From Beroe forskalii (Eukaryota > Ctenophora > Nuda > Beroida > Beroidae), in the NCBI GenBank assembly GCA_011033025.1, contig WFMF01000006.1:372001-436000 (forward strand): a stretch of 64,000 bases of DNA, written 5' to 3'. The notes below the pieces were generated by a model, which ran no database searches, was not told the DNA's origin, and saw only the letters and a list, made by a program, of their open reading frames with translations. Both the position numbers and the translations under genes were made by a program. This document shows positions 23,085 to 36,010 of this stretch, in pieces; the stretch's first letter is position 1; each line of letters begins with the position of its first letter.

Positions 23085-24315
23085 TGGTGGAACTAGTATG
23101 AACAGGTGCGTGACACTGGTGGGACAAGTGTGAACAGGTGCGTGACACTGGTGGAACTAGTGTGAACAGGTGCGTGACACTGGTGGAAATAGTATGAACA
23201 GGTGCGTGACACTGGTGATACTAGTGTGAACAGGTGCGTGACACTGGTGGGAATAGTGAGAACAGGTGCGTGACACTGGTGGAACTAGTATGAACAGGTG
23301 CGTGACACTGGTGGAAATAGTGTGAACAGGTGCGTGACACTGGTGGAACTAGTATGAACAGGTGCGTAACACTGGTGGAAATAGTGTAAACAGGTGCGTG
23401 ACACTGGTGGAACCAGTGTGAACAGGTGCGTGACACTGGTGGAACTAGTATGAACAGGTGCGTGACACTGGTGGAACTAGTGTGAACAGGTGCGTGACAC
23501 TGGTGGAACTAGTATGAACAGGTGCGTAACACTGGTGGAACAAGTGTGAACAGGTGCGTGACACTGGTGGAAATAGTGTGAACAGGTGCGTGACACTGGT
23601 GATACTAGTGTGAACAGGTGCGTGACATTGGTGATACTAGTGTGAACAGGTGCGTGACACTGGTGGAACTAGTGTGAACAGGTGCGTGACACTGGTGGAA
23701 CTAGTATGAACAGGTGCGTAACACTGGTGGAACAAGTGTGAACAGGTGCGTGACACTGGTGGAACTAGTGTGAACAGGTGCGTGACACTGGTGATACTAG
23801 TGTGAACAGGTGCGTGACACTGGTGATACTAGTGTGAACAGATACGTGACACTGGTGGAAATAGTGTGAACAGGTGCGTGACACTGGTGGAACTAGTATG
23901 AACAGGTGCGTGACACTGGTGGAAATAGTGTGAACAGGTGCGTGACACTGGTGGAAATAGTGAGAACAGGTGCGTGACACTGGTGGAACTAGTGTGAACA
24001 GGTGCGTGACACTGGTGATACTAGTGTGAACAGGTGCGTGACACTGGTGGAACAAGTGTGAACAGGTGCGTGACACTGGTGGAAATAGTGTGAACAGGTG
24101 CGTGACACTGGTGATACTAGTGTGAACAGGTGCGTGACACTGGTGGAAATAGTGTGAACAGGTGCGTGACACTGGTGGAACTAGTATGAACAGGTGCGTG
24201 ACACTGGTGGAAATAGTGTGAACAGGTGCGTGACACTGGTGGAAATAGTGTGAACAGGTGCGTGACACTGGTGGAAATAGTGAGAACAGGTGCGTGACAC
24301 TGGTGGAAATAGTGA
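23085..24315. repeat. 32-bp minisatellite
   Basis: About 38 copies of a 32-base unit whose core is AACAGGTGCGTGACACTGGT, followed by a variable GGAACTAGT, GGAAATAGT, GATACTAGT or GGAACAAGT segment. The variants alternate irregularly. Minus-strand frames across it (VSRTCSHYFHQCHAPVHT-type repeats) are artefacts. Confidence 0.92.
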
Positions 24316-25083
24316 GAAAAGGGGCATGGCACTATATCAATGAAGAAAAATAATAGATACCTACCGTGTTTTCGAGATGAACAGCGTCTTAAGAGCAAAA
24401 TAATGAACAAAAACACGAGAGACAGAACGTCTACAATTGCTTAATTGAAGAATGGATGAACAAAATTATCTCAGAATTTTGCTACTCTTCATTTTGATCT
24501 AAGATGGCATCACTTCGTAGTTATATAGGTACCTATAAATGATTTGAATTTGACGATTATAAGTAGGTTATATTTCTTAATTCAGCATAATGTAATTCGT
24601 GACATCGTACAAAAGTAGGTACCTATACAGAAACCGAACTTTCAGTGACGAATTGATAGTTTTGACGAAATTTTCCTGAAAAACGTCGATCATGATATTC
24701 CTTCCTATGCACATAATTTATTATCATAACTTGTGTCATATTAAGATAGTAAGATGTTATAGGTACCTACAGTGAATGTAAACTGTGTAATGGAAGTTTA
24801 GAGTTTCACAGAATTCTATCCAGTGTACACTGTGCTGACCTACATAATACATTGTTTATCTAATAGAATTACACACATTTTGGTAATTCCCGCTTACACA
24901 TTAATCATCAAGCAAATTAGAAGGCCTGGAAGGGGAAACAATTAATAAAAACGGAATTGCGCATTCGCCGAGAAGAAGTCTGCAAATCTGTTCGTAATCT
25001 AATTATTGTGTCTAGATAGGGCGAGGTTGTTTCCACCTCGGGTCGGGATCTCGATGCAGGCAAAAAGGTCGGATTTAGCAGGG

Positions 25084-27264
25084 TTAAAATAAAAACGGCT
25101 CCGTTGATTTTCATAAAACTCTATAGGAATGTTTATCAATGTCTGATAAGTAAATTTGGCAAGTTTCATCAATTTCTAAGTGCCAGTTTTTGAATTATTC
25201 GACTTTTTCGATTTTTGATTATCTGAAAACTTTCCTGAAAACTTTTCTGAAAACTTTTCTGAAAACGGCTCCGTTGATTTTTATAAAACTCCGCAGGAAT
25301 GTTAATCAATATCTGATAAGTAAATTTGGCGAGTTTATCAATTTCTAAGTGCCAGTTTTTGAATTATTCGACTTTTATGATTTTTTGCACGGTATACATT
25401 TTTGATAACTTTCCTTGCGTTTAAAATAAAAACGGCTCCGTTGATTTTCATAAAACTCCATAAGAATGTTTATCAATGTCTGATAAGTAAATTTGGCAAG
25501 TTTCATCAATTTCTAAGTGCCAGTTTTTGAATTATTCGACTTTTTCGATTTTTTGCACGGTATAAATTTTTGAAAACTTTCCTTAGTTCCTTTGTGTTTG
25601 AAATAAAAAACGGCTCCGTTGATTTTCATAAAACTCCATAGGAATGTTTATCAATGTCTGATAAGTAAATTTGGCAAGTTTCATCAATTTCTAAGTGCCA
25701 GTTTTTGAATTATTCGACTTTTTCGATTTTTTGCACGGTATACATTTTTTTTGAAAACTTTCCTTGCGTTTGAAATAAAAACAGCTCCGTTGATTTTCAT
25801 AAAACTCCATAGGAATGTTTATCAATGTCTGATAAGTAAATTTGGCAAGTTTCATCAATTTCTAAGTGCCAGTTTTTGAATTATTCGACTTTTCGATTTT
25901 TTTTCACGGTATACATTTTTGAAAACTTTCCTTGCGTTTGAAATAAAAACGGCTCCGTTGATTTTTATAAAACTCCCCAGGAATGTTTATCAATATCTGA
26001 TAAGTAAATTTGGCAAGTTTCATCAATTTCTAAGTGCCAGTTTTTGAATTATTCGACTTTTACGATTTTTTGCACGGTATACATTTTTGAAAACTTTCCT
26101 TGCGTTTAAAATAAAAACGGCTCCGTTGATTTTCATAAAACTCCATAGGAATGTTTATCTATGTCTGATAAGTAAATTTGGCAAGTTTCATCAATTTCTA
26201 AGTGCCAGTTTTTGAATTATTCGACTTTTTCGATTTTTGATTTTTTGAAAACTTTCCTTGTGTTTAAAATGAAAACGGCTCCGTTGATTTCTATAAAACT
26301 CCTCAGGGATGTTTATCTATGTCTAATAAGTAAATTTGGCAAGTTTCATCAATTTCTAAGTGCCAGTTTTTGAATTATTCGACTTTTATGATTTTTTGCA
26401 CGGTATACATTTTTGATAACTTTCCTTGCGTTTAAAATAAAAACGGCTCCGTTGATTTTTATAAAACTCCCCAGGAATGTTTTTATCAATATTTTAGGTA
26501 GAATACCAGTGCAAGGTAGCAGTCCTCTGACCGCCCCTCGGCAGCAGTCCATGTTCATAAACAGAGGACCATGGTGCCAGCCAAGGGCTAAAACGCTAAG
26601 CGGGACATATGCTACAGAGCACCTGTCTTGCCCGGCTTTGAAGACCCAAGAAAAATATTTTCTTGCGTTTCAAAATAGGCAAAGTAGTATTCTCCAAAAC
26701 TCACTCCGAAAGTGAATTGGGTTGTAGTTTACCGCGCAAAGCAGCAGGTAAATTACAGAATCTGATAAGTAAATTTGGCAAGTTTCACCAATTTCTAAGT
26801 GCCAGTTATTGAATTATTCGACTTTTACGATTTTTTGCACGGTATACATTTTTGAAAACTTTCCTTGCGTTTAAAATAAAAACGGCTCCGTTGATTTTCA
26901 TAAAACTCCATAGGAATGTTTATCAATGTCTGATAAGTAAATTTGGCAAGTTTCATCAATTTCTAAGTGCCACTTTTTGAATTATTCGACTTTTTCGATT
27001 TTTTGCACGGTATACATTTTTGAAAACTTTCCTTGCGTTTGAAATAAAAACAGCTCCGTTGATTTTCATAAAACTCCATAGGAATGTTTATCAATGTCTG
27101 ATAAGTAAATTTGGCAAGTTTCATCAATTTCTAAGTGCCAGTTTTTGAATTATTCGACTTTTTCGATTTTTTGCACGGTATACATTTTTGAAAACTTTCC
27201 TTGCGTTTGAAATAAAAACGGCTCCGTTGATTTTTATAAAACTCCCCAGGAATGTTTATCAATA
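25084..27264. repeat. 168-bp satellite, block B right part
   Basis: About 11 monomers continue the array after the TTAA element. Monomers from 25087 on match those from 19139 on in order, including the CTGAAAACTTT triplication variant, so the array has a long-period internal duplication. A non-satellite piece (26492-26759) interrupts it. It ends within a monomer at ATCAATAT. Confidence 0.92.
26492..26759. other. ~268-bp non-satellite insertion in the array
   Basis: The monomer is broken between ATCAATAT and CTGATAAG. The insert is richer in GC than its host and contains AGTCCTCTG and CAGAGGACC as an inverted pair about 40 bases apart. No target duplication or known terminus is clear. It could be a SINE or solo terminal repeat. 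Confidence 0.5.
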
Positions 27265-27680
27265 TTATAGTATATCCGTATATCTTGGAATTTAGCTCCA
27301 AGATATTATTCATAGCTTAACATTCATAATAGCATTACTATATTATGAATATATTATAAGTAGTTAAGAGACGGAACGTCTCATAGAATTATTCCACATA
27401 TTATGAGCGGCATGATTCGTAGAGGTTGCGGTCTGGATACGGATATTGGGAAAGATCCAGGACCCAGTTAATCAAATAGAGAATCACCCCACGTTCGGAT
27501 TTATACTAATTATAGCTTAAAGTAAATATAGCGGGGCGTTCCTGCGTGAACGTGACTGAATTTGTAGGAACTAGTATTCAGTTATTCCAACAACCTCCAA
27601 CATTCGTGTCTCTCCTTTCTCCCCAAGAACTACAAAAAGTGTATACACTAAAACTGGTGGCCTCGGTGCTCAACCTTTGG
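27265..27680 (+). mobile_element. Probable 5' LTR and leader start of an LTR retroelement
   Basis: This stretch lies between the satellite edge and the leader hairpins of a gag gene. It has the hairpin CTTGGAATTTAGCTCCAAG near 27281. TGGTGGCCTCGGTGCTCAA at 27655 could be a tRNA primer-binding site just after the LTR. Neither LTR boundary nor a matching 3' LTR was found, so this is positional inference. Confidence 0.4.
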
Positions 27681-27934
27681 AAGATTTAGTCAACGGCTAG
27701 ATTTTTCAATTTGTCCTTTCACTGAAACTAGTCAACGGCTAGCTTTCAGACTCATTTAAGTTCTAAGCTATTTAGTCAACGGCTAAATAAGCTTGTACCA
27801 CTTCCAGTGTTTACTAGTCAACGGCTAGTATTCACTGCCTCACTTGTTCACGTCAGGCAATTTGTCAACGGCAAATTTGCTTTCCACTTCCACTGAGCAT
27901 CAATTGGTTGTTATAGTCAACGGCTTTAACAATC
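27681..27934 (+). promoter_or_regulatory. Six-hairpin array with invariant TCAACGG loop in a gag leader
   Basis: The loop TCAACGG, always closed by G-C (word GTCAACGGC), occurs at 27690-27696, 27732-27738, 27776-27782, 27818-27824, 27865-27871 and 27917-27923. The flanks pair in all six cases although the stem sequences differ: AAGATTTAG with CTAGATTTT; CTGAAACTAG with CTAGCTTTCAG (one bulge); AAGCTATTTAG with CTAAATAAGCTT (one bulge); TACTAG with CTAGTA, then CAGTG with CACTG; GCAATTTG with CAAATTTGC (one bulge); GGTTGTTATAG with CTTTAACAATC (one mismatch). Spacing is 42-52 bases. The last hairpin ends at the gag ATG (27935). Conserved loops with differing but paired stems point to selected RNA structure. 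Confidence 0.88.
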
Positions 27935-28611
27935 ATGCCTGAAGGAGAAGCCTTCTTACTCTCAAAACTTCTATCAGTGAAACAGTCCCTTACTCAATTG
28001 GAAAACTCAATATCAGAGGACGAAGAGAAATTAGAAATACCAGCTGGAGATGAAACAGAGATCGAAGCTTTGAATGAAAGCATCACTAAGAAGAAAGAGG
28101 AGCTCCGAGAATTGCAAGGAATTGAGGAGGAACTACGTACCAAGCTAGGAAAGATTTTAATTGCTTCCCAGAGTCCGCCCCAGGAAAAGGAAAGTTCAGA
28201 TATCTCCTTTGGATATCCTAACGAAAAGGATTTCTCACCAACTATGGACAAGGTGCACTTGATCGACGCACCTAAGTCAAGTTATAAAGTCAAGTTGAAG
28301 CAGCCTGAAACGTATACTCGGGGACAGAACTTTCCATCGTTCTGTGTGAACTTCCTTGACTATGTACGATTCTCTAAAGTACGTGATGATAATCTGTACA
28401 TCCTGTTCCTGTCGATGGTTGATGATTTTACAAAAGATAAGCTAAAGGACGTAGTCCTCACATCGACTGAGAAACGTGATGCTAGGCTTTTCGTAGCCAA
28501 ATACGAAAAGAAGATGACGCCGCTCCATGAAGCGGAGAGCTTGAAGTTTAAAGGCCAACTGATCATTTCAAGTTTTTCAACAAATGCTTGGAAAAACATC
28601 GTTCATATGAA
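27935..28611 (+). pseudogene. Retroelement gag, N-terminal half (interrupted)
   Basis: An ATG directly after the sixth leader hairpin opens about 225 codons. Residues 1-70 or so are Lys/Glu-rich and likely a coiled coil (EDEEKLEIPAGDETEIEAL). A Gag-like helical region follows (ETYTRGQNFPSFCVNFLDY, then LFLSMVDDFTKDKLKDVV). The frame reaches a stop four bases into the element at 28612. The C-terminal half, with the zinc knuckle, is at 31523-32132 and is in the same phase if one 4-base target copy is discounted. Gag proteins assemble retroelement particles and bind genomic RNA. Confidence 0.8.
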
Positions 28612-29235
28612 CCATTAAGATTCCGCATATTTTTAGTTTGCATATCTGGACAGAATTGCTGAAAATGGCACATTTAAGAACATGTTGTGACGTAGCAGGT
28701 GGGAGTTTATAGCTTAAAATTACAGGTAAAAATAATTTAGCTATTAAATTTTGGCTTAAGTACTGAAAAATGATAGTAATTAGAAATCGCAATATTTATG
28801 TTTATTGATCCGAAAATTTGTTTGGATAAAGGATTGAATTACCGCATCGCGTCATCAGAAATTAATTACGACTTAACATGCACCAGCTACAGGCTCTGGA
28901 ATGCGGCCCTTTTTACAGTAGTTTGTATTGTGATATCCCATCGATTCCCACATCATACGTAAGCAGTGATATTTCAGCTTCCTATACTGAGCGCTGTGTA
29001 CAATATATGATGCCCGGACTTTGATACATGTTATTGATATAGTGTCGGGCGTGGTTTGGCATAATTATCTCAAAATTTTTTGTAATGATCAGTTGGCCTT
29101 TAACATTTCAAACCTCAACTTTTTGTTTTTTGGGGAATTTTTGTGAAACTTCAGGAATAAGGCACTAAACGGTAGCAATGAAAATTGGCGTTGTCATATT
29201 TTAGCTAAGTGTATTACTTTTTGAGATATAGCTGC

Positions 29236-31502
29236 GTTGCTTCTGAGCAACACGGGACATGTTTCTCAGAAGCAACATCATTATTGTGACCATTTGAGTG
29301 TTATATCTCATGAATAAGCAATCAGTTTTAACTTTCCAACGGTCAGAAACCTTTACACTTGCATATGGGTTTCTGAGATTAGAGCATAGACCTGAAATAA
29401 GGATCTGTTGCTTTTGAGCAACATGGGCCATTAATCCTATATTTCCTATTTAAAGCTTTTCTGGCAACCATATATGTTTTGACATTATGAATTGTAATCA
29501 GAAGTATTAATAAATCATAATTTCTTAAGGTCCTGCCAAAATTTGTTGCCTCAGAGCAACATGGGCATCAACATTCAAGCTTTAAGTTAGGTACTCTTAT
29601 ATGTATGATAAAATATACTTAGTAGCGCTGGTTTTTTATAAAATATAGGTACTGTAGGCACTTTTTATTGATATCTGTTAAATACTTCAATAAGTAATGT
29701 TGCTTATGAGCAACATAGGCAAAGAAAGAAATATTGAAAATTATCTTAATTTTTTACTTCTCCAGCAAAGGATACGTAACAATCGAGATAGATTGATAAT
29801 GCTAACGAGATGGAAAACATTCAAAAAGCCTAAAATTATCCAAACTTCATAATACCTGCTTACCTTTTTCACTCTAAATTTACTAATCTACCACTTAAAT
29901 TGGCTGGTGAGCAGATTAAAGCACCGCCCACGGAAAAAGTCCCCAACTCGAATAATATGACTGACTTTTGTAATCCTTGGTCACACCTGTGCGAACTATA
30001 TCAAAGGTTAAGCATGGACGAGCGAGGTGTGCCACTGAGCTATGATGTCACCTAAGGAGGCATAGTGACACTGCTAGTAAGCAGCATATAGCCAGCCTCT
30101 GTTATTATCTGTAAGTTGGGCCACTTGCTAGGGTAATTAGGTTTAATGTCAGAGTTCAGATTCTATTGAAGGGTAATGGTTAGGATAAGGCAGGTTTTTC
30201 CAGGGCGAATTCCGTCTGGCCCAGGGAATTCTATGGCTAGATGCACCTCAGTAACAGACAATATAGTAAAGAAGAAACCTTGCTGGAAAAGCTTTTTTAT
30301 GCACATGCTTTTTGTAATCTATTTGAAAAGCTCTTGACAAACAATTCTCTCGTATCAGAGTATCAGTGAACCTCCCAAGTAGGAACCTGTAGTCCACAAC
30401 ATGAACTGCTTTCTGTTTATGCCTTGTAGTTTAATGGCATGAAACTTCTCATGAACAGTCATACAGTGAACTATTTTAGACATGAGGTTTGGTCGGGAAT
30501 AATATGTCAAGTTGACTTAGCTCTGATTGATTCTAGAATTTTAGGGTGATCGGTGATCACCCTAAAATTCTAGAATCAATCAGAGCTAAGTCAACTTGAC
30601 ATATTATTCCCGACCAAACCTCATTCCCGACCAAACCTCATGATCACCCTAAGAATCTATAATCCATGCATTCACATTTAAAATGAAGCGTCATATTAAC
30701 TGGAGGATGTTAAAACCTGTTGCGTGATATATTTGTGTATTGACAGTAGAGGTATTGATAAGTTCATGTACAATTAGGTCTTCATTATAAATTAGATATT
30801 CAACACAGTGACTCCTCGATGCCCATGTTGCTCAAAAGCAACATTTTTCTGACAAAATTAAGTTTTGTTAGTAATAAAAAAATTAATAAATGGCGAATAA
30901 ACGTCATTTTGACGGCTTATGACTCTAAATCTGTTATTACATAAAGAGTATTTGTTGGTTCGCCCATGTTGCTCAAAAGCAACACTTTTGAAATAAAGCT
31001 TATACAGGCTGAATATCGCATGGAACTACTTTGTACAATGAATATATGTCATCCAAAGTTTGTTACAATTTAAGATAAGCTTTCTGGGAGCTTAGATAAG
31101 CAAAAAGAATTTGTTGCTTTTAAGCAACATGCTCCGTGTTGCTTTTTAGATACACTTACTTCAAATCCTTCCTGTATCGAGTGTGATTGATGTAGGATAT
31201 TGGTTTTTTCACTAGGCTAGAGGTGCAAGGTGGATCTAAATAGAACAGGCGAGGGTTTGACTCCTTTGATAATGATCATTCATTGGTATGAGAACTAATT
31301 AAGGAAATGAAAACAGCGCGTTTTTCTTAATTAGGTGACGCAATTAGCTCTAATTACTAATTACCTGTTTTTTGATTTCCTATTAATCAACTTTCACAAT
31401 GATTTTCGAGGACTTAATGACCTAAACAAAGCAAAAACCCATTCTGTAAAAACTTTCAATGCCCTTAAAATGGCATTTAAAGATTTGTTGCTTAAAAGCA
31501 AC
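29236..31502. repeat. Dispersed GTTGC(N6)GCAAC palindromes
   Basis: Copies lie at 29236-29251, 29407-29422, 29545-29560, 29699-29714, 30827-30842, 30968-30983, 31113-31128 and 31487-31502, with half-copies near 29266 and 31138. In the left half most are followed by ATGGGC or ATAGGC (GTTGCTTTTGAGCAACATGG); in the right half GCCCAT precedes two of them. The set is thus arranged as an inverted pair of clusters around the element's centre, as subterminal transposase-binding sites often are. Confidence 0.8.
30482..30624. repeat. Perfect palindrome, 70-bp arms, 3-base spacer
   Basis: Arms at 30482-30551 and 30555-30624 are exact complements around GGT. The outer word GGTCGGGAATAATATGTC and the inner TCTAGAATTTTAGGGTGATC can be read on both sides. 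A partial third copy follows at about 30625-30658. It encodes no protein; transcribed, it would fold into a long hairpin. Confidence 0.93.
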
Positions 31503-31522
31503 GCGGAGCACTAATGGGTTAA

Positions 31523-32132
31523 GCTCGTTGACTCCAAACAGTCCTCAGAGGAGTCAGTAGAAGACTTTGCTTTTCGATTGAAGCGAATGTCCTTGAGGGC
31601 ATTTTCAATCGATGAAGAGGCCAGTAGGAAAGCCTCGTGCTATACAGCCTTTCTTAAGGGTTTAGCATCCAAAAACCTGCGTATCAAACTGAGAGAAGAC
31701 AAGCAGGTTTCTACATTTGAAGAGGCGGTAGAAGAAGCTAGTCGTCTAAATGAAATACTTGAAACAGAGACAGACGACACAGCACGCCTCTCCCAGCAAC
31801 TTGAAGTGTTAAAGATTGATGGGGATAGCCCCAGCAACAGTCAAGATCAAGATGATAGTCAACCTGGTAACTCCAGGCGTGATCATAGAGACAGCCGCTA
31901 CTCAGTGAACAGAGGCAGAACAAACTCTTACAGAGGATCCCGACAACCCTTCCATACTCAACAGAACAGCTCTCGTAACACTACATACCAAAGACATGAT
32001 GAGAGACAGTCCCACAACGCTGGTAACACCAGTAGGGGAAGACCTGGACGTAACAGAGGAGCGATCAGATGTTACAACTGTCACCAGGAGAATCACTTAG
32101 CTAAACATTGCACGTTGAATTTAAACATGTAG
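31523..32132 (+). pseudogene. Retroelement gag, C-terminal half with zinc knuckle
   Basis: The frame resumes directly after the TTAA at 31519. SEESVEDFAFRLKRM is the typical Gag motif before the capsid C-terminal helices, and the sequence then runs through TAFLKGLASKNLRIKL and an Arg/Ser/Asn-rich basic stretch. It ends in one CCHC zinc knuckle, CYNCHQENHLAKHC (C-X2-C-X4-H-X4-C), which binds RNA, then a short tail and TAG. No protease or polymerase frame follows, so the element is truncated 3' of gag. The pol at 41284-44259 is on the opposite strand and is not its continuation. Confidence 0.85.
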
Positions 32133-32810: not shown

Positions 32811-33370
32811 TAATAATAATAATTTAAACTTTTATATTATAGTGGCACATCAACTTAATTTAATGCACAGCTGTGCCACGAGAACAGATTCAACATTAAA
32901 AGCAATGACAGTGCTCCAAATAACTTAATATACAAATAATTCAAAGTTTACTAAAAAGCTGGAGTCATGCTGAGTTTAAGCACTGTCAGAAAATACAAAG
33001 CATAATTCATACAAAATTAATTTTAATAAGTTAAATAAAAAGCTAAATATCAAATGCTATTTTGAATAGATAAGTTTTAAGAGTTGATTTGAATGATTCT
33101 ATGGATGAACAAGTTTTAAGTTCTAGAGGAAGACAATTCCATAATTTAGGGCCAGACTTCTGAAAAGATCGTTCCCCCAAATGAGAGAAAACTCTAGGTT
33201 CATGCAGGGAGATTGAATGATTAAAATCGACATATTTAAACATTGATTCCAAATATTCTGGAGCAAAGCCATTTAAACATTTGTATACTAAGAGGAGAAT
33301 CTTAAAATGAATACGTAATTGAACAGGAAGCCAATGCAACTCTTTGAGTGTATCTCCAAGATAGCCCCCA
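32811..33370 (-). pseudogene. 5'-truncated LINE, C-terminal end only
   Basis: The minus-strand frame 33043-33339 begins HWLPVQLRIHFKILLLVYKC and continues through GERSFQKSGPKLWNCLPLEL to LKTYLFKIAF. This is the conserved last ~95 residues of CR1/jockey-type LINE polymerases. About 230 bases of 3' untranslated sequence follow and end in an ATT-type short repeat (AATAATAATAAT on the plus strand, about 32811-32822), the usual LINE tail. Upstream sequence stops matching at about 33370, a normal 5' truncation. Confidence 0.85.
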
Positions 33371-33379
33371 CCCAGAATG

Positions 33380-33775
33380 CGGCATCGCCATGAAGAGCAT
33401 TGATATCGCTTCAGTAGAATAAGTTATCGCCTCCTTCTGAAAATTGTCGCCAGCAATTACATCATTTGCGACAATATTCTAAGTAGGCGACCATTTAGTT
33501 TTGTTTTTGTCGCCTACAATGTATTTTTTGTCGCCTAAGTAGTACTTGATTATCATAATTTGTCGCATGTAACAAAAAATAATCGCCTTCTGGACTATAT
33601 CCAAGTCTTGGGCAAATTTGTCGCCTCATGTAAGAAATTGTCGCTTACTCTGGTGATGTAATAAATCCGTCGCCTATATGAAAAATAATCGCGTTTGATA
33701 TTTTCGTAAATATCCGAATTGTAGATTAAAATCGTCGCGTATCCAGGTTGATAGTCGCTTCAGGAATCTTTTGAA
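33380..33775. repeat. Cluster of GTCGCC words
   Basis: TTGTCGCCT or close variants occur about 14 times in 390 bases, mostly in one orientation with two inverted (TTGCGACAA, AGGCGACC). Spacing is irregular. The same word fills the termini of the MITE at 2993-3509, so this may be a related but unbounded element. Confidence 0.6.
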
Positions 33776-34503
33776 ATTTAATTAGAATATATAAATAATG
33801 TTGAAACAACGTGTGGGTTACATTTTACACATGGCAGAGAGAGAGCTTGAATTGAAACATCTTTCTCAGTTTTACGATAGCAAAGAAATGAAATTGCGTT
33901 ATTCGTAATTAATGATACACACAATGAAACTATTTGAACATGATTTAATGGTGCGTGGTTTAAAACTAAAAGTAGGCAGATACGTTGACGTTATAATCAA
34001 TGGCACTATCATCATCTTTGAACTTTGATATGGACATTGGACATGCCACATACCTTTTCCTTCCTGCCCTCCCTTAATGCAAATATGCGATCGAATTAAG
34101 TGCTGCAGCTCTCTTCCGCATCCAGTTCTGATCTAATGAAGCGATCAGTGTGTGTTTGTTTAATAGCTCGTAATGAGGTTAGAAGAAGGTCTAATTTCAT
34201 ACTTGCCCCTGTCTCTCAATTCTTGTGTGTAAATGTAAGTGTTGCTGTTATGTCATCTTCACGAGTAATGTAGTACATCATGATACACGCACACATTCAC
34301 TGAAATACTGAGTGATTTTTTGTCGTGAAGTTGTGAAGTATATCGCAAAAATATCAAAACAATTGTTAAAATTTGTTTAGCATTAAAGAATAACTTAAAA
34401 CAAAATGTCAAACAATAATAATTCATATAAAAAACAATTAATTTCATGAGTGAAAAATATAAAACTTGTAAATAAGAAAATAAAAAGCTGATATTATTAT
34501 TAA

Positions 34504-36010
34504 TCGATTCGATTCGTCGATCTGATTTGTCGATTCGATTCGTCCATTCGATTCGTCGATTCGATTATTCGATTTGTCGATTCGATTCGTCGATTCGATT
34601 CGTCGATTCAATTCGTCGATTCGATTCGTCGATTCAATTCGTCGATTCGATTCGTCGATTCGATTCGTCGATTCGATTCGTCGATTCGATTATTCGATTC
34701 GTCGATTCGATTCGTCGATTCGATTCGTCGATTCGATTGCTCGTCGATTCGATTCGTCGATTCGATTCGTCGATTCGATTCGTCGATTCGATTCGTCGAT
34801 TCGATTCGTCGATTCGATTCGTCGATTCGATTTGTTGATTCGATTCGTCGATTCGATTCGTCGATTCGATTCGTCGATTCGATTTGTTGATTCGATTCGT
34901 CGATTCGATTCGTCGATTCGATTCGTCGATTCGATTCGTCGATTCGATTCGTCGATTCGATTCGTCGATTCGATTCGATTCGTCGATTCGATTCGTCGAT
35001 TCGATTCGATTCGTCGATTCGATTCGTCGATTCGATTCGTCGATTCGATTCGTCGATTCGATTCGTCGATTCGATTCGTCGATTCGATTCGTCGATTCGA
35101 TTCGTCGATTCGATTCGATTCGTCGATTCGATTCGATTCGAGTCGATTCGATTCGATTCAAGTCGATTCGATTCAAGTCGATTCGATTCGATTCGTCGAT
35201 TCGATTCGTCGATTCGATTTGTCGATTCGATTTGTTGATTCGATTTGTTGATTCGATTCGTCGATTCGATTCGTCGATTCGATTTGTCGATTCGATTTGA
35301 TTCGATTTGTTGTCGATTCGATTCGTCCAATCCATTCGTCCAATCCATTCGTCCAATCGATTCGTCCAATCGATTCGTCCAATCGATTCGTCCAATCGAT
35401 TCGTCCAATCGATTCGTCAATTTGATTCGTCGATTTGAATCGAATCGACAAATCGAATCGACAAATCGAATCGACGAATCGAATCGACGAATCGAATCGA
35501 CGAATCGAATCGACGAATCGAATCGACGAATCGAATCGACGAATCGAATCGACGAATCGAATCGACGAATCGAATCGACGAATCGAATCGACGAATCGAA
35601 TCGACGAATCGAATCGACGAATCGAATCGACGAATCGAATCGACGAATCGAATCGACGAATCGAATCGACGAATCGAATCGACGAATCGAATCGACGAAT
35701 CGAATCGAATCGACGAATCGAATCGACGAATCGAATCGACGAATCGAATCGATGAATCGAATCGACGAATCGAATCGACGAATCGAATCAACAAATCGAA
35801 TCGACGAATCGAATCGACGAATCGAATCGACGAATCGAATCAACAAATCGAATCAACAAATCGAATCGACGAATCGAATCGACGAATCGAATCGACGAAT
35901 AGAATCGACGAATCGAATCGACGAATCGAATCGTCGAGTCGAGTCGTCGAATTGAATCGACGAGTCGAATCGACGAATCGAATCGTCGAGTCGAGTCGTC
36001 GAATTGAATC
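34504..36010. repeat. 13-bp satellite that reverses strand at ~35437
   Basis: The unit GTCGATTCGATTC runs head to tail from 34504 to about 35436, then its complement runs to about 36010. Variants include a CGTCCAATCGATT block (about 35325-35420) and shortened units near 35120-35190. Because 13 is not a multiple of three, every frame reads through the same 13-residue cycle; the long frames on both strands (up to 412 codons) are artefacts. Confidence 0.93.

Follow-up and report, generated by a model that had tools for sequence, protein, structure and literature searches.

In the ctenophore Beroe forskalii, a Ty3/gypsy-type LTR retrotransposon carries six short predicted hairpins in its leader, in which the stems vary in matched pairs and the loop is nearly constant, and other gag families of the same genome repeat this architecture with other loops. 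The array is probably a multivalent docking site for Gag that serves packaging, with a loop specific to each family, Gag being the presumed reader. The element lies in a stretch of 64 kb (the window), part of a 216-Mb genome assembly that was searched throughout. The window copy has a single LTR and an interrupted gag, and its parts are the following:

27268..27650, plus strand: 5' LTR, TAGTATATCC...TATACACTA, 383 bp, ends approximate, aligned with the LTRs of copies C547 and C825
27655..27672, plus strand: primer-binding site TGGTGGCCTCGGTGCTCA, with TGGTGGC also present 5' of gag in related loci
27935..28618, plus strand: 5' part of gag, an ORF with codons 1 to about 206 followed by foreign sequence
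28553..31523, no strand assigned: insertion splitting gag, about 3 kb, boundaries approximate
31524..32132, plus strand: 3' part of gag, an ORF with one CCHC zinc knuckle

The interruption of the gag frame after codon ~206 by the ~3-kb insertion corrects the earlier reading of this gene. Over these 206 amino acids the window gag is 100% identical to that of C547. The zf-CCHC match in the 3' part (E 0.0024) is under Pfam's cut-off, and the CCHC columns are nearly invariant in the gag alignment. TGGTGGC was found upstream of gag at 23 other related loci, and at two more after sequence extension; in C825 it reads TGGTAGC. None of the nine LTR matches was a second LTR on the window's contig, and Rfam gave no match above the gathering score in the window. 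The first codons of the insertion (28553-31523) match 23 other places of the genome at 57-92%, as repeated mobile sequence. Diverged tandem repeats of ~168 bp (25084-27191) reach almost to the left edge of the LTR, so that the element lies at or in a satellite. Also in the window are 32-bp tandem repeats (24000-24383), a 13-bp minisatellite turning into its own inverted copy (34431-35981, with 373-nt arms 88% complementary) and a minus-strand ORF (33043-33423), whose product we take to be similar to a LINE-type reverse transcriptase protein in its C-terminal region.

The C547 copy is nearly identical to the window element (leader 98%, gag of 408 codons), and its two LTRs differ at 0 of 379 sites. 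A 2.3-kb piece of its pol matches RVT_1 (E 2.7e-22) and RT_RNaseH_2 (E 6.1e-19). It belongs to the Ty3/gypsy type by its two LTRs, primer site, CCHC gag and reverse transcriptase with RNase H.

The word GTCAACGGC occurs six times in the window, always on the plus strand (27689, 27731, 27775, 27817, 27864 and 27916) and at spacings of 42-52, against a shuffle mean of 0.16 and with none of 100 shuffles reaching six. Over the whole genome the word shows no enrichment (555 matches vs 554 for the reversed control word), and its clustering in the window is therefore local. The corresponding hairpins occupy the leader from the primer site to gag:

27678..27708, plus strand: hairpin 1, 14 bp, loop AAC (or UCAACGG)
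27722..27749, plus strand: hairpin 2, 12 bp with one bulge; its outermost C-G is G-C in C825
27765..27794, plus strand: hairpin 3, 13 bp with one bulge
27806..27836, plus strand: hairpin 4, 8+4 bp with a 2x2 internal loop; its neck G-C is A-U in C825
27855..27882, plus strand: hairpin 5, 12 bp with one bulge
27905..27935, plus strand: hairpin 6, 13 bp with one mismatch; the A of the gag AUG takes part in its last pair

As 31-mers, each of the six folds into a stem of 12-14 pairs, a count that includes the three within the 9-mer. When arms were exchanged between hairpins, the mean energy was -10.0 kcal/mol for own arms and -3.4 kcal/mol for swapped ones, and 19 of 20000 permutations paired at least as well as the true order, about as many as a true order ranking first among all 720 would give. 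In a free hairpin search, which asked for a shared loop and differing arms, the window leader gave six of six and each of 60 dinucleotide shuffles at most one. The sense strand of the whole leader (27656-27940) outdid all 200 shuffles in folding energy (z -5.42), and its minimum-energy structure contains the six hairpins, whereas the antisense strand did not stand out (z -1.45; 16 of 200 shuffles). Prediction of the hairpins in the sense RNA is thus far above the chance level.

An earlier note on the window had described a loop word repeated six times at intervals of 42-52 between arms that differ and yet pair, and both the shuffles and the arm swap bear this out. Its stems of 8-11 bp were right as to pairing and too short, reaching 12-14 bp once the inner pairs are included. 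The loop that it called invariant is so within the window copy; between copies of the element it varies as NAC on a constrained neck. The array does end at the gag ATG, as had been stated, since hairpin 6 can close with the A of the AUG as its final paired base.

As for the loop itself, the G-U-C and G-G-C of GUCAACGGC, read as RNA, can pair (G-C, U.G, C-G) and leave an AAC triloop, which is the choice of the fold program. Changes between copies support the triloop: in hairpin 6 of C547, which forms 14 bp without mismatch, a U-A replaces the U.G, and in C825 an A-U replaces the G-C in hairpin 4 and a U.G replaces the C-G in hairpin 6. The first loop base in C825 is A, G or U. The loop is therefore probably a NAC triloop on a G-C, U.G, C-G neck, and a pentaloop YNACG closed by U.G or U-A would explain the same changes. 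No GACG tetraloop was found among the loops read in the arrays; two C825 loops hold the string GACG, read here as a GAC triloop with the G paired.

The C825 copy (C825:294721-296895, which includes both L043 and L023 of our locus list) has a leader at 76% and an LTR pair with 0 differences over 348 sites, separated by an interior of ~1.5 kb in which gag consists of fragments with stops. By these features it is a recently moved, non-autonomous and internally deleted relative. Four of its six hairpins fold at -7.8 kcal/mol or better, hairpin 6 folds poorly (-1.8) and hairpin 5 has lost the loop motif. In the arm swap, 24 of 20000 permutations were equal to or above the true order for C547, and 159 for the five pattern-fitting hairpins of C825. 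Across window, C547 and C825, 96.4% of the pair cells remain paired and both sides change in three cases (a count reached by 14 of 500 shuffles; 0 to 2 in slid controls), one of which falls in C825 hairpin 5, without the loop motif. Retention of the array in a recent mover unable to make its own proteins fits, as one case, a cis-acting packaging signal.

Related gag genes were searched for in the genome with the window gag, giving 66 places, 23 of them short matches to the inserted tail and not to gag. Upstream sequence was examined for 29 gag places (L030-L058, window included) and for 30 more (L060-L089), the latter at estimated positions, of which two missed the leader and one was an antisense duplicate; L061 had no leader and L062 looked like other coding sequence. 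Arrays with a constant loop and varying stems, each of 6 to about 20 hairpins, were found upstream of gag or inside it in about ten further families, six of which pass an unsupervised test and four only a targeted one. Short loops are found in L033 (UCACU), L034 (UUACU), L057 (UCAUU), L065 (GCAUU), L069 (GGAUY) and L060 with its relative L119 (GACCU), and a longer constant part in L048 (a bulged G, CACU-GYCUN-AGUG), L035 (mostly NNC triloops), L067 (CAG-UCUU-CUG) and L073/L077/L079 (UAACU).

In the targeted arm swap, the permutations of 20000 that equalled or exceeded the true pairing numbered 0 for L033, L035, L048, L065, L069, J060 (L122+L060) and J065, 1 for L057, 2 for L067, L079 and L119, 4 for L034, 10 for L060, 303 for L077 and 338 for L073; as the loop patterns used in this and in the AUG and G.T tests below were picked by eye after seeing the pairing, these counts are somewhat optimistic. 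The free hairpin search and a test on 6-mers are cleaner controls. In the latter, an unsupervised arm swap applied to every 6-mer with at least five copies, the floor p of 0.0005 was reached only by eight leader stretches (window, L033, L034, L057, L069, J060, L119 and L080, of which the last reads the L033 leader on its reverse strand and is not independent). J065 gave 0.0015 and C547 0.0025, and the lowest value among the 30 testable controls (17 of 28 gag-coding and 13 of 16 random genome pieces) was 0.011. The test is blind to families whose constant part exceeds the word, and it was failed by L048, L035, L067, L073/L077/L079 and C825 (corrected 0.77); a short L065 stretch gave 0.08. Corrected p values below 0.05 were also obtained for five sequences not labelled as arrays, the L046 and L056 leaders and the coding controls L035, L054 and L040 (1-3 words, raw 0.0085-0.0175), and the uncounted leaders L089, L036 and L066 had raw p of 0.0055-0.008 with 16-33 words. 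The free hairpin search found 3 distinct arms in L035, L048, L065 and L067, against 2 in the largest shuffle, and 4 against 3 in L057; L069 and L077, with 2 each, were not above shuffles (largest 3). With the first detector, the coding controls L049 and L040 had shown 5 copies with 3 arms and 4 copies with 4 arms, respectively.

Several candidates were rejected as arrays: L041 is a 35-bp tandem repeat; L066, L086 and L089, flagged by the first detector, are low-complexity or plain tandem repeats; the repeats of L036 lie upstream of the primer site; L052/L053/L063/L064 have two or three hairpins only; and L068/L083 are weak. The two CGGAYYG words of L063 are like those of L069 and too few for an arm swap (9945 of 20000).

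Among loci with a recognised primer site, 15 of 27 (near-copies included) carry an array. It is absent from the other twelve (L036, L052, L053, L055, L056, L063, L064, L070, L071, L072, L075 and L078), so not every relative needs one. Absence at many of the other loci means little, because the leader was placed by estimate and the stretch read holds no primer site; L089, with a gag almost the same as that of L069, shows neither array nor primer site in the stretch read. In a gag tree with 50 rows, five changes are needed for the ten array-labelled rows, below all 500 label shuffles (mean 9.3), a count that would differ if L073, L077, L079 and the gag row of L119, labelled array-less, were included. 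Close gag relatives share the same or nearly the same loop (GACCU in L060/L119; UCACU and UUACU in L033/L034), whereas distant relatives differ. The L057 gag had no match at E 0.001 among 5.8 billion proteins, and none was confirmed for the C547 gag among viral contigs.

Covariation was scored within the two arrays L033 and L065, with hand-picked hairpins as rows. Across the 19 hairpins of L033, 27 cells change on both sides, against 8.8 in shuffles (none of 500 as high; at most 10 in slid controls), and such changes affect 9 of 11 pairs. The 12 hairpins of L065 show 13 two-sided cells vs 4.2 (0 of 500), and the three L065 pairs with a two-sided change are not above shuffles (200 of 500), a slide of +3 reaching 4. 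The hairpins of one array probably share ancestry, so that these cells are not independent events. The covariation that the earlier note had asked for is therefore present, above shuffles, in L033, in L065 and among the three window-family copies; the closest relatives do carry the array with covarying stems, and the array-less primer-site loci lie outside this group.

The own stems of 12 arrays contain 78 G.T against 26 A.C oppositions, which the scoring treats alike; the control ratio from swapped arms of the same composition is 1.47, and the excess has a p of 0.0013 if this ratio is taken as exact. The bias is not found in every array (G.T:A.C of 5:0 in the window, 8:5 in J065, 5:2 in L069 and 4:3 in L119). 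Because G.U pairs exist only in the sense RNA, the excess points to structure in that RNA. The folding z of the sense strand ranged from -3.8 to -12.2 in eleven array leaders (30 shuffles each), with a clearly weaker antisense value in eight of them and a similar or slightly stronger one in L065, L069 and L048, while three array-less relatives gave -0.7, -0.6 and +1.3. Arm swapping, covariation, strand specificity and recurrence near related gag genes all favour the idea, already put forward in the earlier note, of an RNA structure with re-invented stems and a putative reader.

The array lies between primer site and gag in the window, C547, C825, L033, L034, L035, L048, L057, L065 and L069, and in all of these except C825 it is preceded by the same primer site. 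In L067, L073, L077 and L079 it precedes the primer site and presumably belongs to the LTR (the site of L067 is less certain, only TGGTGGC matching), and these arrays (L077 17-420, L079, L073, L067 21-500) are likewise free of ATG. A role in priming, one of three that had been suggested together with packaging and translation, is unlikely, as the loops differ between families that share the primer site TGGTGGCC.

The stretches from array to gag contain no AUG in 10 of 10 leaders, where about 74 would be expected in all, a test in which window and C547 are near-duplicates and the expected counts treat repeats as independent. No ATG occurs from primer site to gag in L031, L033, L034, L035, L057, L065 and L069, or in C825 from the primer site to beyond the former gag start; the single ATG of L048 lies 117 nt past the primer site and precedes the stretch tested. 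L060 has a 189-nt leader without array, and its loops lie downstream of the first AUG, the GACCU loops of this family (J060, L119) being within the open gag frame. In L060 (1-900), 17 of 17 loops are in frame 0 and encode QRPA/QRPV, so that an RNA code and a peptide repeat share the same letters, and the peptide repeat could explain part of this family.

A constant loop on stems that need only pair is a familiar sign of a partner that reads the loop, and the different loops of co-resident families suggest that this partner is encoded by the element. Gag is favoured on account of its CCHC knuckle and of the precedent of retroviral packaging hairpins in the same place. The unit would be a short hairpin whose loop (in the window, NAC on a G-C/U.G/C-G neck) is recognised and whose stem needs only to pair. 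Ribosomes would scan through the array, and the element's own Gag, with its capsid and CCHC nucleocapsid, would bind the loops; lying side by side, these would recruit many Gag molecules to the full-length RNA and nucleate the particle, so that an element would pack its own RNA instead of that of a neighbour family. With differing stems, each arm would pair only with its own partner, avoiding mispairing between hairpins and perhaps also the long direct repeats that lead to jumps of the reverse transcriptase.

Control of translation is the strongest of the alternatives, and still an unlikely one. The array might slow or gate scanning, or Gag or a host protein might repress gag translation through it once Gag suffices. 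Its end at the gag AUG in the window, its abutting the AUG in L048 and the modest stability of the hairpins would suit such a role, and the absence of AUGs suggests that ribosomes do scan through it. In L060, however, the loops lie downstream of the start codon, which argues against a pure initiation role and fits packaging better, and gating does not call for a different loop in each family. Gag autoregulation could coexist with packaging. Of the two, packaging seems to us the likelier function.

It is rather improbable that the loops are read by the host, through an RNA-binding protein or an RNA that serves localisation, export or stability. A constant loop on variable stems implies just some reader of loops, and several loops resemble NNAYU, so that a common one can be imagined; a reader shared by the many families of one host would nevertheless favour a single loop, and their loops differ.

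Somewhat less probable again is a neutral and functionless product, in which tandem hairpins are kept palindromic by template switching. Such quasi-palindrome correction, to which reverse transcriptase is prone, alters both arms at once. Against it stand the bias of G.T over A.C beyond composition (although G.U could also arise if A or C were edited in the hairpin RNA), the constant loops, the sense-biased stability in the window, the absence of AUGs and the retention of the array in the recently moved C825, none of which is decisive outright.

A DNA-level array of protein-binding sites, comparable to the Su(Hw) sites in the gypsy insulator, is very improbable; in its favour, short sites cluster between LTR and gag. 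CAACGG resembles what we take to be a Myb site, and the C825 loops GACGG and UACGG presumably break that consensus. The gypsy insulator has 12 sites in 340 bp of 5' UTR (PMC2374998), and so shares with the window array the tandem short motifs and the position in the 5' UTR of a Ty3/gypsy element; its sites are DNA sites for a zinc-finger protein, for which passages of that paper mention no matched inverted arms. A DNA site needs neither matched arms nor a sense-strand G.U bias, and both features point to RNA instead. Dimerisation through kissing loops is equally improbable even though hairpins mediate the dimerisation of retroviral leaders, in some cases with loops other than long palindromes (GACG, CAG; passages of PMC516450), since 19 of the 20 loop spellings checked have no self-complementary stretch above 2 nt (the exception being the rarer GGAUC of L069, with 4 nt), in agreement with the earlier remark that the loop is not self-complementary.

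The nearest precedents for a Gag-docking array are the GACG hairpins of retroviruses and the dispersed packaging signals of RNA viruses. The retroviral GACG hairpins form a pair, whereas the arrays have 6 to ~20 hairpins with a family-specific loop and orthogonal stems, and belong to an LTR retrotransposon. Leader hairpins with a recurring GACG loop take part in RNA packaging in alpha- and gammaretroviruses (PMC516450), as does the double hairpin of spleen necrosis virus (PMC5086612); the recurring loop and the leader position are common to both systems, packaging being known there and proposed here. In single-stranded RNA viruses, multiple dispersed signals promote assembly (PMC6281560), and packaging motifs are short and mostly in the loops of stem-loops (PMC9065705); these are dispersed through the genome, whereas the arrays are packed in one stretch with a near-constant loop. 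Ty3, of the same element class as the window element, has a Gag whose single CCHC finger is critical for packaging (PMC4974528). Passages of this 2016 review of Ty1 and Ty3 describe no repeated-hairpin leader, and the terms 'hairpin' and 'packaging signal' are absent from its text. In searches of the open-access literature, no description of such arrays was found, as the earlier note had supposed for retroelement leaders.

A broader reading, to which we lean less, is that the arrays could act as a lineage-wide RNA barcode. Each family would show its own loop, on an array of orthogonal stems, to its own Gag; loop and Gag would co-evolve, co-resident families would sort their RNAs, and the array would move between leader, LTR and gag coding sequence with the RNA code kept. 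On how LTR retrotransposons select their own RNA, the 2016 review states that packaging sequences 'have not been precisely defined' (PMC4974528); in the present arrays a candidate signal is legible by eye and recurs up to about twenty times. As many natural loop variants occur among the families of one genome, the specificity of Gag for RNA and its co-evolution would be testable with short RNAs, and the arrays offer a set of modular, mutually orthogonal hairpins.
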